A stretch of DNA of 64,000 nucleotides from Nostoc cf. commune SO-36 (lineage in GTDB: Bacteria > Cyanobacteriota > Cyanobacteriia > Cyanobacteriales > Nostocaceae). Numbering within the stretch: the stretch's first letter is position 1; the number at the start of each line of letters is the position of its first letter. The DNA is taken from positions 2,052,501-2,116,500 of the forward strand of contig NZ_AP025732.1 of NCBI RefSeq assembly GCF_023734775.1, given 5' to 3'. The position numbers were made by a program, and so were the translations under genes. The notes beneath the pieces were generated by a model. That model was given only the letters and a program-made list of their open reading frames with translations, had not been told where the DNA came from and did no database searches. Positions 1,160-7,058 of the stretch are shown here, in pieces.

Positions 1160-1741
1160 ATGGTCGTTAGCCAAAGTGAGTACTATATCTCCCCTGAAGA
1201 ATATCTAGAAGGCGAGAAAGTAAGTGAAATCAAACATGAGTACATTGATGGTCAAGTCTACGCAATGGCAGGGGCAAGTGATGCTCATGTCACAGTGAGC
1301 ATGAATGTATCAATGCTGTTGCGAAACCATCTCCGGGGTAGTGGTTGTCGTGTCTATATGTTAGATATGAAAGCACAGATTGATATCATAAATCGCTATT
1401 TTTATCCCGATGTGATGGTGACTTGCGATACACGAGATAAAGAATTTGAATATTTTAAGCGCCATCCTTCCTTAATTATCGAAGTGCTTTCTGAGTCAAC
1501 CGAAGGCTATGACAGAGGTAAGAAATTCGCTAGTTACCGACACTTAGAATCATTACAAGAATATGTACTAATTTCACCAGATAGAATGAGCGTCGAATGC
1601 TTCCGCCGCAATGAAGATGGACATTGGGTACTTTACCCTTACGAGAAAGGCGAAGAGGTGCATTTAGCTAGCGTTGATTTTCGCTGTGCGATCGCAGAAA
1701 TATATGAAGATGTAATATTGATAGATGAAAATATTTCTTAA
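1160..1741 (+). CDS. Uma2 family (DUF820) restriction-endonuclease-like protein
   Basis: This 193-residue protein opens with the usual Uma2 leader (YYISPEEYLEGEKVSEIKHEY followed by the DGQVYAMAGAS motif). It carries the PD-(D/E)XK-like core: YPDVMVTCD near residue 90 and LIIEVLSEST near residue 110. An AAGG ribosome-binding site lies just before the ATG. These proteins are hugely expanded in Nostocales; the nuclease fold is established, the biological role is not. The gene converges with the next Uma2 gene, and the two stop ends overlap by 4 bp. Confidence 0.9.
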   Translation: MVVSQSEYYISPEEYLEGEKVSEIKHEYIDGQVYAMAGASDAHVTVSMNVSMLLRNHLRGSGCRVYMLDMKAQIDIINRYFYPDVMVTCDTRDKEFEYFKRHPSLIIEVLSESTEGYDRGKKFASYRHLESLQEYVLISPDRMSVECFRRNEDGHWVLYPYEKGEEVHLASVDFRCAIAEIYEDVILIDENIS

Positions 1742-2496
1742 TCTAACATTTCTGGGTCAATTCCTAAATCTTTGAGTTGTTCAGCAGATAGACTACGCAA
1801 TTTCTCTACAATTCTCTCTCGCTTTTGTCGCTCAATCACTGCCCGTTCCTCACCCGTTAACAGCAAATTTCCTTGTGCATCCCACCACCGTAGCCAAGGT
1901 AACTCTGCATTCTGATAAAATCCCTGCCAGATTCCTAACTCTACACCCATAGGAGCAATTGGGTAATATCCTCGTTCATTGGGTTGCATCAGTTGATAAG
2001 TATTATCGATTAAATGATACACTTCAACCTGTGCTTTTGCTACTTCATAAATTCCATAATAAGGCACTCGAATTGCCTGCTCATAAACCCAAAACTTACC
2101 AACATTTCCACCTTGCCCTTGAGATGGCGGTGTGTTATTTCGTTCTTCTGAACCATCTCCAGAGACAAATTCAATCACAATCAAGGGCGCGACATACTCC
2201 TTCCACAGTACATAAGAACGCCGCATTTTACCGTTAAGAGTCGGTGGTACATTGGGTATATAAAACCAGTCTGGTGCTTCAGCCCCTTTCTCAGGAGGAT
2301 CTGTCAATCGCCAGTAGATACCAGAATCTTGTCCGATACAATATTGACCGTCAGGATGAAGTTGCTCTAGAACAGGTTTAATTGAATCTGTGATTAAAAT
2401 GCTTTGCGGATGCTCCTGAAGATTTTTCACAAATGTACCATCTGAATCTGGTAACTGAGTGTGATCCGGTAAAGTTAATGCCGATAGGGAAGTCAT
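1738..2496 (-). CDS. Uma2 family (DUF820) protein, long form
   Basis: A 252-residue Uma2-type protein. The nuclease-like core is visible as EAPDWFYIPNV around residue 80 and PLIVIEFVSGDGSEE around residue 110, followed by the KFWVYEQAIRVPYYGIYE segment typical of the long form. The C-terminus is charged and helical (ERQKRERIVEKLRSL). The frame can be extended to a TTG at 2508, but the ATG at 2496 gives the usual MTSLS-type start, so I chose it. No strong ribosome-binding site is visible for either start. Role unknown. Confidence 0.85.
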   Translation of the reverse strand: MTSLSALTLPDHTQLPDSDGTFVKNLQEHPQSILITDSIKPVLEQLHPDGQYCIGQDSGIYWRLTDPPEKGAEAPDWFYIPNVPPTLNGKMRRSYVLWKEYVAPLIVIEFVSGDGSEERNNTPPSQGQGGNVGKFWVYEQAIRVPYYGIYEVAKAQVEVYHLIDNTYQLMQPNERGYYPIAPMGVELGIWQGFYQNAELPWLRWWDAQGNLLLTGEERAVIERQKRERIVEKLRSLSAEQLKDLGIDPEMLD

Positions 2497-2646
2497 AGAC
2501 ACAACCAAGATTATATTTGTATTTCATTTATTATCTCAATAAATCTAACAAATTTTGTTGCGCTATAATAGTTTATACTTGTCAACTTTGCACTTATTTC
2601 GTTTTAGTATATAACGAAAGCTTGGATTAATTTCACTAATTAAAAA

Positions 2647-3342
2647 TTAATAGATCACAAGAGAAGATTTAATCATATTAAGTAATGGCTGTAGAAATAT
2701 ATCCACTATTGTTTTTGCAAAAGCAAGTAAAACCCCAATAGCAATTGTCAAGACTAAAGCCTGTTTAATAGAATAACTCTCTACTTTTTTCTCCAGTTCA
2801 TCCAAACGTTTTACCAAATTAGGAAGAGAAGAAACTAAATCAGGACGATTCATTAAATCAGTAGGAATTGAATTATAACCTATCTTCTTTCGAGGGTCTT
2901 CATCATCTTTATCCAAGTCCGCATACCATATAGGAAAAAGCCTCTCACCCTTTTCTACTTGAATGTTAATAGGCCCAGCATTATAAACAGCAAAAATTAG
3001 TTTGCCATTATAGCCAGGATCGACATGAAAACCTGAAACATTAATCAGTCCATCTGATTTATGTTTAAATTTAATTGAAATAAACGCAAGTGCATTGTTA
3101 GGAACTTTGATTGTTTCAGAAGTTATCAGAAATGCAAACTGACCTGGAGGGATAGGAACAGTTTCCTTCTCTCTAAGAATAATTTTTTTCCGCTCTCTCA
3201 GAGGTGTATCAGGAAGGGCTGAAATATAAACTTCTTCCCCTAAACACAATTCGTATGATGCAGACTGAATTTGATCCTTATTAAATGGTTCAATTAAACT
3301 AGGAAGACGAGAATTCAAAGTTTGTGATGACCAAAAACTCAT
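2647..3342 (-). CDS. membrane-anchored dCTP deaminase/dUTPase-like protein
   Basis: Residues 1-150 match the trimeric dCTP deaminase/dUTPase fold: IQSASYELCLGEEVYI near residue 26 corresponds to the IxPxSxDLRLG motif, and FHVDPGYNGKLIFAVYN near residue 105 to the HRIDPGxxGxIxLExxN strand. The catalytic Glu of true dCTP deaminases (the E of LEFYN) is Ala here, and the SxxxR motif is not recognisable, so deamination is doubtful. Residues 165-190 look like a short coiled coil and 193-215 like a transmembrane helix, an unusual addition. It is the last gene of a four-gene minus-strand set, 40 bp after the MazG-like gene. It may bind or sense dUTP/dCTP at the membrane; that is inference. Confidence 0.75.
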   Translation of the reverse strand: MSFWSSQTLNSRLPSLIEPFNKDQIQSASYELCLGEEVYISALPDTPLRERKKIILREKETVPIPPGQFAFLITSETIKVPNNALAFISIKFKHKSDGLINVSGFHVDPGYNGKLIFAVYNAGPINIQVEKGERLFPIWYADLDKDDEDPRKKIGYNSIPTDLMNRPDLVSSLPNLVKRLDELEKKVESYSIKQALVLTIAIGVLLAFAKTIVDIFLQPLLNMIKSSLVIY

Positions 3343-3382
3343 TTGTTCCCCCGCAATATATCGTTAAGTGAATGTTTTATTT

Positions 3383-4294
3383 CTACAGAGCTAAACGCAG
3401 ACTAGACTCTTCCAAATAGGTTATCAAGCGTGCATCAAGGTCAACCACTACCCTTCCTCCCCGATTTTTCTCTACCTGTCGCCAGACATCATAGCCCATG
3501 AGAATCGCCTTCTCCCAATCACCCAACGAACATTGAGAAACTTCTAGATGTGATGTCATATTTTTGATAGTCTTCAATAGTTGATAATCTAATGTTGAAA
3601 CGCCTTTTAAGAAACCGTGATCTTTGGCATAGGCGAATACGAGTGCTGATACACCTTCCTCAATAGCTATTGCACGACCACCGTCTTCAACCTCGTCAAT
3701 GCGGGGATTGCTTTTACGCTTACATTTAAGAATACTACGAGTGACCACAGACCAACCTAAAACTGCGGCGTAGGAAAAATGGAAAACATCATGAAAGCGG
3801 TAGCCATCACTTTTATAGGAATTATCGGTGAGGTCATTTCCAATTTGTTTTTTGTTGATAAATGCCTTCATTTTGATTAAGTTATCTTTGCTTACCTCCG
3901 TAATTTCTACTTCAAACTGTCGTGGTAAACTTTCATGTTCGGGAAAGTCATTGTCGAATATGTAACTTGTAGCTTTATCATCTATTTTTGCTGAATCTCT
4001 CCATCCCCAACGGTCACTGCACTTTTTCAAATTATCTTCGGCAATTTCTTCCAAATTAAGGTTAAATTTGCTTGCCAAATTGGAAATATACCAAAGCATA
4101 TCCCCCAATTCTTCCGCGATGCCTTCTTTAAATAATTTGTGTGCATCACCGTCGCGTAAATGTTTTTTATATTCAGTCATCAAAGAACCAACTTCACCAA
4201 CTAAACCTAGTAGCGGTATGATTAGTTCAGTACCTTCGACAGCAGGAATTTGGTCTGTATTCAGTGCTTGTGTTTGATATTCAGAAAAATGCAT
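3383..4294 (-). CDS. MazG-like nucleotide pyrophosphohydrolase with extra C-terminal domain
   Basis: The first 100 residues are an all-alpha MazG-type NTP pyrophosphohydrolase. They contain GLVGEVGSLMTEYKK near residue 30 and the EELGDMLWYISNLA helix near residue 61, which supply the acidic Mg2+-binding ExxE/ExxD residues. Enzymes of this fold hydrolyse (d)NTPs to monophosphates. Residues 120-303 form a second domain with HDVFHFSYAAVLGWS and IEEGVSALVFAYAKD, resembling the MazG C-terminal domain described from base-modification gene neighbourhoods (from memory, not searched). The start ATG at 4294 has no strong ribosome-binding site. It lies between the DUF1643 gene and the dCTP-deaminase-like gene, consistent with a shared nucleotide-handling role. 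Confidence 0.85.
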   Translation of the reverse strand: MHFSEYQTQALNTDQIPAVEGTELIIPLLGLVGEVGSLMTEYKKHLRDGDAHKLFKEGIAEELGDMLWYISNLASKFNLNLEEIAEDNLKKCSDRWGWRDSAKIDDKATSYIFDNDFPEHESLPRQFEVEITEVSKDNLIKMKAFINKKQIGNDLTDNSYKSDGYRFHDVFHFSYAAVLGWSVVTRSILKCKRKSNPRIDEVEDGGRAIAIEEGVSALVFAYAKDHGFLKGVSTLDYQLLKTIKNMTSHLEVSQCSLGDWEKAILMGYDVWRQVEKNRGGRVVVDLDARLITYLEESSLRLAL

Positions 4295-4398
4295 AATGAA
4301 ACTGCTTCAATTTAAAAGTTGTTGATTTTTATAGAAAAAAATATAAATATGAGAATTCTTTATAAAGAGTCGTTATTATATATTGTGTAATTCTGCTA

Positions 4399-4974
4399 TT
4401 ATCTTTCTATGTTAAAAGGAAAAATAATTGGTTTTGTATTATCTCTAAGATATAGTGGGTGGCGTGGAAATTTTTGCTTTGTTAGACCTAATGGATATTC
4501 TTTCTCTGTTAGCTTTAGACAATGAAGAGTTTTTTGACCAGAAATTAGATTTAGCACGGCTTCCGCACGGTTCTTAATACTGGGATACTTCCTCGCACTC
4601 ACATTACCAAGTCACGCTCCCCACGCTAAAATAATTAAGTCAGCGCGTTTTGTTGATGATAGAATACAAAGGTCATTTTTTTGTCCCACCGGGTCATCTG
4701 CTTTTTTCAGCTTACTAGGTTTTGTAGCAATATAAGCGAATAGATTAACCACTTCTAGAGAACCATATTTATTCTCATTCTGAGCAAACTTAATACACTT
4801 ATCAAGAGTGGGATCATCTTTATTTTCATCAGCGTAACTTGGGTTAAGCATCACAAAGGTAACTTGAGGTAAACTTTCATCCCATTTACGTCTTAATAAG
4901 TAGCGATAAGTTCTATTATTTTCATCATCAAATTCAGCATACTTTTCAATATTATTATGCTCTTTTTTCTTCAT
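4399..4974 (-). pseudogene. DUF1643 protein interrupted by an in-frame TGA
   Basis: The N-terminal piece (from the ATG at 4974, preceded by AAAGAG) contains TFVMLNPSYADENKDDPT and VVNLFAYIATKP, diagnostic of DUF1643, a small family of unknown function. It ends IILAWGA followed by TGA at 4612-4614. The same frame continues without any shift through LGN and then the normal C-terminal DUF1643 sequence, including LHCLKLTEKEYPLG and PRHPLYL. The lesion is therefore one nonsense codon at residue 121 of about 191, not a frameshift. The downstream GTG at 4602 could start a fragment. Alternatives are a sequencing error or a recent loss-of-function mutation. The gene lies 44 bp after the HMUDK_hel gene. 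Confidence 0.8.
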
Positions 4975-5018
4975 GTTTCTCTTTTGAATTATGTTGAATT
5001 TATAAATATCAAAATACC

Positions 5019-6341
5019 TTAAAACAGACACAACTGTTGAGGCTTCTCTGTATCTTCATTTTGCAAAGCTTTTGATTTTTTACTCTGAGTTTTTTGCTCA
5101 TGTTTTTTAAGGTGTTTTGATAAATTATCTGAGATTTCAGGTGTATTTTTTACCAAAGAATCTAGCTCCAAAGATAATTGCTGACAATGATTATCTAATT
5201 GTTGAAAATCAAAAATCTCTAATGGTGGTAATCTATTTGCTAAACTTTCTTTAACTTGATCGTTAATACGCCATTTGGGAGGATAAAAATAATCAATTGG
5301 TTGAGGCGTTGAAGTAAATTTTGATTTTATCTTTTTGCGATTACTTTTCAAATCAGGGAATGCTGCTCGGCAGTATTTATCAGTTTCACAAAAAAGATTT
5401 TGACAATCTATCGCCTGTAGTGGACGACCCCAGAGTGATTGAAAATTAAACCCCAAACGCTGAAACTCTTTCTCTTGGTTTTGAGTCATCCAATGAATGA
5501 TATCAGTATATGTTTTACCATCTGTATCAATGAAACACTTGTCGATACCACGTTCGGCTCCTGGGCCTGCTATAGTAAAACTGTTTTCGTCAAAGTTGAT
5601 AATTTCACTATAGTTAATATCTGTCGCTAATTGGTAAGCCATAAACTTACCTAGCAATGGATATTCTTGAATTATCTGAAAAACATCTTCAAATTTTTTA
5701 GCCTTGACTATGCGATTATCTACCCTATCTTGGACAACCATTCTATCAATTAATGCCAAATGATTCTGGTGCTTTTTATCATAACCAAACTCTTTGCTGG
5801 CACAAGACATATATGCACTGGTATAAATGACATATCCAAGATTCATAGCCTCTTGTAATATATCTGAATATACATTTGAATCGAAATTAGACAGTGTAAT
5901 ATAATCTCCTAATTTTTTTTCTAAGTATTCCCATGTTTCTATTTTATTAAAGATTTTAAATAGTAGAATCCGTATAATTACTTCTTCTTCATTTTGGCTC
6001 CTCTTCTCATCGTAAATTACGTTTTTGATCAGATATTGTGAAACGCGATCGCTTGCTCGATATGCATTACAAAATTTATAAGTATTAATAATCGGGTCAC
6101 TCGTCCAGGGTGGTGGTACATTATTAATTTTATTGAAAAATACTTCCTGGCGCATAGCAGCAAATCGCCAATATGTATCAAAAATTTCTTGTCTCACTTG
6201 CATACACTCTTCTCCTGGTTTGTGGTCATCAGTTTCAAACTTATTTTTTATCCATGAGGCAAGATTATGCGACAAATGCCGCATAATCATCGTATCAGAT
6301 CGCACTCCAGGCAAAGCATCCTTAAAGCTAATTGTCAGCAA
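5019..6341 (-). CDS. HMUDK_hel / alpha-glutamyl-putrescinyl-thymine pyrophosphorylase-type protein
   Basis: Residues about 54-110 carry the family signature RQEVFFNKINNVPPPWTSDP followed by a conserved YKFCNAYRASDRVSQYL helix. Near residue 320 there is DCQNLFCETDKYCR, the second conserved block. From memory, this is the helical domain of phage 5-hydroxymethyl-dUMP DNA kinases and the aGPT-PPlase clades, enzymes predicted to build hypermodified thymine in DNA. The last 80 residues are low-complexity and basic. Start is uncertain: the frame opens at a TTG (6341) with a purine-rich stretch directly before it; ATG at 6290 is possible. It is the first gene of the four-gene minus-strand set. The substrate and chromosomal role are inference. 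Confidence 0.7.
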   Translation of the reverse strand: MLTISFKDALPGVRSDTMIMRHLSHNLASWIKNKFETDDHKPGEECMQVRQEIFDTYWRFAAMRQEVFFNKINNVPPPWTSDPIINTYKFCNAYRASDRVSQYLIKNVIYDEKRSQNEEEVIIRILLFKIFNKIETWEYLEKKLGDYITLSNFDSNVYSDILQEAMNLGYVIYTSAYMSCASKEFGYDKKHQNHLALIDRMVVQDRVDNRIVKAKKFEDVFQIIQEYPLLGKFMAYQLATDINYSEIINFDENSFTIAGPGAERGIDKCFIDTDGKTYTDIIHWMTQNQEKEFQRLGFNFQSLWGRPLQAIDCQNLFCETDKYCRAAFPDLKSNRKKIKSKFTSTPQPIDYFYPPKWRINDQVKESLANRLPPLEIFDFQQLDNHCQQLSLELDSLVKNTPEISDNLSKHLKKHEQKTQSKKSKALQNEDTEKPQQLCLF

Positions 6342-6377
6342 CTCTTTTTAACTTTTATCTACTGAATAAGATGATGT

Positions 6378-7058
6378 TTATGAAACACCGGGATCATCAG
6401 CAGTTTTAATCTCTTTTAAAATTCGTTCTACTTGGTTAACTTTTTCACCTCTATTTTGTTCTTTGAAAATATTTAAAGCTTTTTCTAAAGAAGATAGCGC
6501 CTCATCTTTTTTATTTGTTTGCCACATTGCCAGCGCAAAATTAGTCAGCGCCTCGCCATAATTAGGATTAATTTCCAGAGCTTTTTTATATTCAGTAATG
6601 GCTTCTTCCCATCGGCTTTGGCTAGCATAAACCATACCGCTCGCATTGTGAGCTAGAGCGTATTTTGGCTGGAGGCGAATGGCTTCTTGATAAGAGCTAA
6701 TTGCTTCTTCTGGTTTCTTTTGCCGAAAAAGCACATTTCCTAGTTGAAAGTGTCCAAAGGCATCTTCTGGAAATTGTTTAATTAATTTGCGTAAATTTTC
6801 CTCTGCACCCGTCAAGTCTCCCTGATTAAATAAAGCATTGGCTTGTTGCAGGAGTTGCGATCGCTCTGATGGGCCTGTGTCTGAAAATTGTGCTAGTTTT
6901 TGTGGTTGTCTCTGTGCATACTGTTTAGGCGAATGCAAAGAAACTTGTTCAGGAACCGCTAACACTAATGGTGATATCCCCATTACGGTGATGATACTCA
7001 GCATCATGCCACTAAAAGATTGAACAAATGCTGATTTGGATTTGCGCTTCACTTTCAT
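6378..7058 (-). CDS. exported tetratricopeptide-repeat protein
   Basis: A 226-residue protein with a basic N-terminus and a hydrophobic stretch (SGMMLSIITVMGISPLVLA) that looks like a signal peptide or membrane anchor. At least four TPR units follow (for example FGHFQLGNVLFRQKKPEEAI and AHNASGMVYASQSRWEEAI). TPR arrays bind other proteins; the partner is unknown. It ends only 36 bp before the start of the HMUDK_hel gene, so read-through into that cassette is possible, but its sequence looks like an ordinary cyanobacterial periplasmic TPR protein. Confidence 0.85.
   Translation of the reverse strand: MKVKRKSKSAFVQSFSGMMLSIITVMGISPLVLAVPEQVSLHSPKQYAQRQPQKLAQFSDTGPSERSQLLQQANALFNQGDLTGAEENLRKLIKQFPEDAFGHFQLGNVLFRQKKPEEAISSYQEAIRLQPKYALAHNASGMVYASQSRWEEAITEYKKALEINPNYGEALTNFALAMWQTNKKDEALSSLEKALNIFKEQNRGEKVNQVERILKEIKTADDPGVS

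Follow-up and report, generated by a model that had tools for sequence, protein, structure and literature searches.

A variable-site HMUDK_hel and MazG cassette of Nostoc cf. commune SO-36, a possible reduced relative of bacterial operons resembling phage thymidine hypermodification clusters

The window analysed here is a stretch of 64,000 nucleotides of the Nostoc cf. commune SO-36 chromosome (contig NZ_AP025732.1, positions 2,052,501 to 2,116,500), in which a cassette of four minus-strand genes lies beside acs, between a tetratricopeptide-repeat (TPR) gene and a Uma2-family gene. We read it, with a confidence that stays just short of even, as an accessory anti-phage cassette and as the reduced relative (short form) of a widespread bacterial operon (long form) whose chemistry is like that of phage thymidine hypermodification. 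A phage DNA-hypermodification enzyme family is here tied to chromosomal, plasmid-borne and Argonaute-linked operons. The four genes are as follows.

5019..6203, minus strand: HMUDK_hel gene (PF18723, about 394 residues, no P-loop)
4399..5031, minus strand: DUF1643 gene (PF07799, interrupted in frame by a TGA at 4612-4614, probable start at ATG 4974)
3383..4294, minus strand: MazG and MazG_C pyrophosphohydrolase-like protein (303 residues)
2647..3342, minus strand: protein of dCTP deaminase (DCD) fold devoid of the usual deaminase residues, with a C-terminal membrane segment (231 residues)

The cohesion of this gene set is best seen in the distribution of its two main families, each sought by its own search in one set of 388 genomes from the class. 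HMUDK_hel occurs in 13 genomes and MazG_C in 11, and in all nine genomes holding both the two genes lie 0.5-1.4 kb apart. This linkage, far above chance, bears out the shared neighbourhood that the first-pass annotation had proposed to look for. Regarding the four genomes with HMUDK_hel and no MazG_C match, the contig of G245 ends inside the MazG gene, that of G366 is 3.8 kb long and has no MazG, and MazG_C is missing from the stretches read in G028 (an 8.4-kb contig) and G133, the HMUDK_hel of the latter being a 56-residue match unconfirmed by a second, purpose-built profile. Conversely, G072 and G103 have MazG_C and no HMUDK_hel. A contig alignment search then gave at least 278 HMUDK_hel relatives, of which 80 were kept, together with eight in viral contigs. 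One hundred loci, window included, were mapped; L024 was left out, L028 has no HMUDK_hel according to the purpose-built profile, and L023 and L065, being of equal length, probably represent a single contig. Neighbouring genes were counted within 6 kb and labelled with profiles built from clusters of the same loci, and since these loci were fetched through HMUDK_hel, all frequencies are conditional on it.

In the 14 loci of the Nostocales short form, HMUDK_hel is accompanied by DUF1643 (12 loci), MazG (11) and the DCD-like gene (5, one broken). The fourth gene is loosely attached to the set. The 34 loci of the long or other forms are richer: an enzyme resembling thymidylate synthase (TS-like) is found in 28, MazG in 26, ImmA in 24, XRE in 21, AcpS in 19 and a 97-residue protein in 14, followed by a kinase (11), a DCD-like protein (10), a second thymidylate synthase (TS; 7), DUF1643 (5), an Nmad-like protein (4), Argonaute (3), a PD-(D/E)XK nuclease (2) and a radical SAM protein (2). 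The eight viral loci hold ImmA (4), the TS-like enzyme (3), XRE (2), kinase (2) and one each of MazG, the 97-residue protein, radical SAM and the second TS. In the Bacillota/Mollicutes group (43 loci), XRE occurs eight times and a kinase once; a radical SAM protein lies near HMUDK_hel in 16 of the 43, with a SPASM domain in one of them (L076:8959-9984). This brings to mind phage MP1412, where a gene weakly matching radical SAM precedes HMUDK_hel by two genes.

The lead protein belongs to PF18723 with an E-value of 1.9e-108. It shares 27% identity with a protein of phage Vi01 (E 1e-30) and 24% with MP1412_14 (E 5e-24), both of which match the same family (E 4e-83 and 8.8e-59, respectively). Phage ViI hypermodifies thymine (according to the part of PMC6449724 consulted). 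In MP1412 the gene neighbours a 5-hydroxymethyldeoxyuridine (hmdU) kinase (PF18748, 6.9e-18), a TS, Nmad5 and the radical SAM-like gene already mentioned, and in Vi01 it adjoins a gene annotated as MazG-like, whose product has no sequence similarity to the MazG of the window. Thymine hypermodification is also known in the kin of MP1412. Unlike these phage clusters, the window cassette is host-encoded and comprises neither a hydroxymethylase nor a kinase. The AlphaFold2 model of the protein (mean pLDDT 87.3) displays a glycosylase/transferase fold in fold comparison, and the 5-PmdU glycinyltransferase PUGT (PDB 8z2n) and the amino acid:DNA transferases are among the closest known systems. The label of kinase, suggested at first for this gene, is not supported, in view of the missing Walker A motif and of this fold; labels such as "nucleotide kinase domain" and "dCTP deaminase" on genes of this type may mislead. 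As to its start, the open frame reaches an upstream TTG at 6341, which had been taken as the start codon, and ATG 6203, preceded by AGGAG, is most likely the true one: the alignment of short-form homologues begins at residue 34 of the longer frame, and the added part resembles the flank, with two short DNA matches of 6259-6346 in the stretch L166 of a congener and weak matches of residues 4-29 in all three congener stretches. HMUDK_hel is also encoded by phages of Nodularia, whose hosts are Nostocales (nine records, some duplicates; L150:5992-6951), and these phages may supply the modified base or be a counterpart of the cassette. In a Gemmataceae genome, HMUDK_hel and MazG are found in one 659-residue frame (L120:9887-11866).

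The 303-residue protein matches MazG_C (PF18722, E 3.6e-84) and MazG (PF03819, E 8.2e-5, 23.2 bits for a cut-off of 22), so that both families anticipated from the letters are confirmed by Pfam. Among the 35 aligned rows with letters, E34 is kept in 34, E62 and D65 in all, and position 37 is S in 21 (including the window protein), E in 9, Q in 4 and A in 1; MazG pyrophosphohydrolases have four acidic metal ligands, presumably at these positions. The fourth protein matches PF22769 (E 3.5e-17, 63.3 bits for a cut-off of 27), and its profile best matches two PDB entries named dCTP deaminase, 9ln0 (5.7e-23) and 8y1w (2.8e-22). It misses the cut-off of the curated equivalog TIGR02274 (71 bits vs 92.8), and the genome has a separate ordinary Dcd. 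Fifteen linked DCD-like sequences were found and the broken L022 fragment was left out, leaving 14 with that of the window; set against the ordinary Dcd of this genome, all 14 have A or S in place of the Glu of the TLEF motif, and the Ser and the Arg of KSTYAR are each kept in 1 of 14, residues that are presumably catalytic in Dcd. The proposal that this gene acts as a dCTP deaminase is hence not sustained, as the expected residues are replaced. Anti-phage dCTP deaminases are a known kind of defence and have the same fold; the cassette protein differs from them by the replaced Glu and by an added C-terminal membrane segment, a hydrophobic 19-mer present in all 14 proteins (mean hydropathy 1.36 to 3.22, above 1.8 in 13) and placed at residue 195 in the window. 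A second, smaller pairing is found in G025 (L174:8005-9350), in which a DCD-like membrane protein, 67% identical, is directly followed by DUF1643, with neither HMUDK_hel nor MazG near the pair in the 16 kb read.

The accessory nature of the cassette is apparent from its genomic setting, described by three further features.

2499..6321, strand not applicable: variable stretch, lacking at the corresponding site of three congeners
6378..7058, minus strand: TPR-repeat gene, conserved flank, 85-89% identical in three congeners
1738..2508, minus strand: Uma2-family gene, conserved flank, 91-94% identical in three congeners

In these three same-genus genomes, flanks of 85-94% identity enclose a site that lacks the 3.8-kb cassette. 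The cassette is replaced by 506 bp in G334, by 1629 bp with a 474-residue frame in G191 (the match resuming at 6372) and by 1742 bp with a 462-residue ATPase in G375 (the match resuming at 6352). The best PADLOC match of the ATPase among 68 families is HEC-04 (2.5e-41), and the 474-residue protein has no PADLOC match. The replacing genes, located at L165:2480-3901 (474-residue protein) and L166:1682-3067 (HEC-04-like ATPase), mark a swappable site by acs. HMUDK_hel was found in none of the three other same-genus genomes. The AT-richness noted beforehand relative to acs also holds against the whole window: the cassette (2647-6241) has a GC content of 34.5% vs 40.7% for the window, a value as low or lower in 0.66% of 303 stretches of the same length. 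The view of a chromosomal, accessory nucleotide- or base-modification unit is supported by the neighbourhoods and the empty sites, and so is its probable acquisition or loss in one piece; such a unit may make, remove or sense modified pyrimidines. Uma2-family genes flank it at 1160-2508, and in each of the three congeners between 20 and 26 matches to Uma2 were counted.

The long operons give an idea of the chemistry from which the short form may have been reduced. All 18 aligned rows of the TS-like protein share an invariant Pro-Cys; the profile of this protein matches CMP 5-hydroxymethylase (6.8e-4) and thymidylate synthases (0.05-0.08), hhalign links it to the thymidylate synthases of MP1412 (5.6e-5, probability 66) and L021 (3e-6, probability 88), and one of 18 members matches the Pfam thymidylate synthase (0.0025). 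The profile matches all five long-form genomes tested (G022, G023, G247, G318 and G028). In G022 (L019:8366-13183), some 2.8 kb with two other frames separate two pieces of the TS-like gene, which suggests that an insert has split it. The reading of the 97-residue protein as carrier-like is supported, although weakly, by its sequence: Phe-Asp-Ser is invariant in 13 of 13, a PP-binding domain is detected in 3 of 13 (best 4.1e-4), an acyl carrier protein (ACP) leads its matches to PDB profiles (E 0.016), further ACPs being interspersed with unrelated chains below it, and hhalign with E. coli AcpP aligns the Ser (probability 2.9, E 0.016; XRE control E 0.38). It is strengthened by the adjoining phosphopantetheinyl transferase gene (PF01648, 1.2e-16 in L018). 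Among phages, SP-15 offers a precedent for a carrier-linked gene in thymine modification, since the list given for it in PMC5977210 contains an "acyl carrier protein reductase". The long form is also found on a Nostoc plasmid typed as conjugative, where AcpS is missing, and the genes seen on a Rhizobium plasmid are acpS, XRE, ImmA, a TS-like stretch, DCD-like and HMUDK_hel. In L018:5000-13148 and L025:4226-12367 the operon runs into a class II prokaryotic Argonaute gene (split over two frames in L018), with a Cas4-like nuclease named by PADLOC in the former and matched by a purpose-built profile in the latter, and in L021:17-7362 another Argonaute lies behind the second TS. These Argonaute-linked operons, made up of carrier-like, XRE, ImmA, TS-like, kinase and HMUDK_hel genes, thus place some relatives of the cassette beside genes known from anti-phage defence.

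A link to defence was also sought in the literature. In the portion of the DefensePredictor report consulted (PMC13092281), the ten domains for which a defence role was newly validated include 5-hydroxymethyluracil kinase and thymidylate synthase; the legend of a figure names TS, dNMP kinase, 5hmdU kinase and NMAD; and aGPT-PPlase, MazG, MazG-C and dUTPase are predicted as defence domains, not validated. By domain name, these are the kinds of enzymes present in the long operons, and the window cassette differs from such systems in being the short form. When E. coli genomes were searched at the DNA level with the P. syringae relative, nothing was found. Some literature searches for the gene combination came back empty, another turned up PMC10452541, in which MazG, acyl carrier protein and thymidylate synthase occur, and the long operon may have been described earlier.

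How the cassette could work is proposed as follows. Through its glycosylase-like fold, HMUDK_hel would flip out a 5-hydroxymethyl- or 5-phosphomethyl-pyrimidine of invading DNA or of nucleotides and would conjugate or bind it; MazG/MazG_C would hydrolyse the matching dNTPs; and the membrane-anchored DCD-like protein may bind pyrimidine nucleotides and report or act at the membrane. No ThyA-type thymidylate synthase (PF00303) was found in the window genome, the control being found in 9 of 14 (the flavin-dependent Thy1 was not searched), and the hmdU kinase family PF18748 had no match there either, in a search whose control itself matched 0 of 14. With neither a TS-like hydroxymethylase nor a ThyA-type enzyme in the genome, unaided synthesis of hydroxymethyl-dU is unlikely and the modified base would have to be supplied by the incoming phage or by another enzyme. 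In this strain the cassette probably works only in part. The findings predict a concrete chemistry, the carrier-linked modification of hmdU. A more specific scheme, which we hold to be unlikely, would be an inducible (XRE/ImmA) bacterial pyrimidine hypermodification whose adduct is delivered by a phosphopantetheine carrier protein together with a holo-ACP synthase of its own; the TS/CMP-hydroxymethylase-like enzyme would make the 5-hydroxymethyl base, the kinase would activate it and HMUDK_hel would couple it, thereby marking or poisoning the DNA of phages. The Nostocales short form would retain coupling or recognition and nucleotide control with a pseudo-deaminase as membrane sensor.

Several observations weigh against an anti-phage cassette derived from such operons. 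PADLOC has no match for any cassette protein. No Walker A motif or P-loop was found in the HMUDK_hel frame, and Foldseek alone yielded nothing from the PDB at E < 0.001. The TS-like enzyme was found in none of four short-form genomes (the window genome G000, G136, G336 and G363), the long-form genomes serving as positive controls. MazG lies within 6 kb of HMUDK_hel in none of the 43 Bacillota/Mollicutes loci, some of them on short contigs, which indicates that HMUDK_hel has other contexts. To this must be added the conditional nature of the neighbour frequencies and the scarcity of the DCD-like gene in the short form. Both 9ln0 and 8y1w align a Met at the expected Glu and yet keep RSSLAR, so that the loss of the Glu alone is no proof of inactivity. 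Since the MazG proteins of L018 and L025 are identical, these two loci may belong to a single lineage, and the Argonaute linkage, seen in three loci, probably arose in two independent cases. Finally, the TS and the 5hmdU kinase of DefensePredictor may or may not belong to one system.

Among the alternatives, the best placed is that of a decaying relic, a formerly functional cassette no longer working in this strain, which is unlikely. The DUF1643 gene, initially described as a single open gene, is broken by the TGA at 4612-4614: its N-terminal piece matches PF07799 with an E-value of 4.6e-38, its C-terminal piece with 0.012, below the cut-off, and no complete domain lies in one open frame. The announced gaps of 44, 104 and 40 bp are reproduced if the gene starts at ATG 4974 and is read across its stop; the four minus-strand genes and all the named families were otherwise found by Pfam as described. 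No second copy of DUF1643 was found across the whole genome, and intact copies exist in relatives, for instance L060-L064. In the same direction, the DCD-like gene is broken in G136, and Nostoc linckia (L059) retains HMUDK_hel without the other three genes. Against decay of the whole, the HMUDK_hel, MazG and DCD-like frames are intact in the window, and their identity to the L060 counterparts is 93%, 93% and 84%, respectively. A role in nucleotide house-cleaning, MazG and its partners clearing damaged or foreign dNTPs outside any defence, seems improbable. It would fit the three acidic MazG positions kept in nearly all rows and the matches of the profile to a nucleotide pyrophosphohydrolase (0.0011) and dCTP pyrophosphatase 1 (0.013), and it accords poorly with an accessory cassette in a variable site, with relatives linked to XRE/ImmA and Argonaute, in a genome keeping its ordinary Dcd. 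Modification of thymine in the host's own DNA, as in phages, is the least credible and very unlikely: despite the homology of HMUDK_hel with proteins of the Vi01 and MP1412 hypermodification clusters, the genome has neither a TS-like nor a ThyA-type enzyme, no cassette protein has a P-loop, and the family is patchy, as the counts among the 388 genomes and the congeners indicate.

The origin of the short form was approached with trees of both main proteins. In that of HMUDK_hel, for which the Bacillota rows were thinned to 22 and short-match rows, L065 and L066 were left out beforehand, the short form groups with Bacillota/Mollicutes (SH-aLRT 93 including viral rows, 99.9 once seven long viral rows are dropped), and in that of MazG it is nested among the cyanobacterial long forms (support 83). 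A constraint that unites the HMUDK_hel of the short form with that of the cyanobacterial long form is not rejected, however, at p-AU 0.093, so that a chimeric origin of the short form is a lead and not a result. Regarding minor features, no kinase family was detected by Pfam in the cassette proteins, and promoter and terminator scans yielded no more than shuffled sequences. All four genes match PHROGs families, phrog_2396 (unknown function), phrog_3230 (unknown), phrog_229 (MazG-like) and phrog_1663 (dCTP deaminase).

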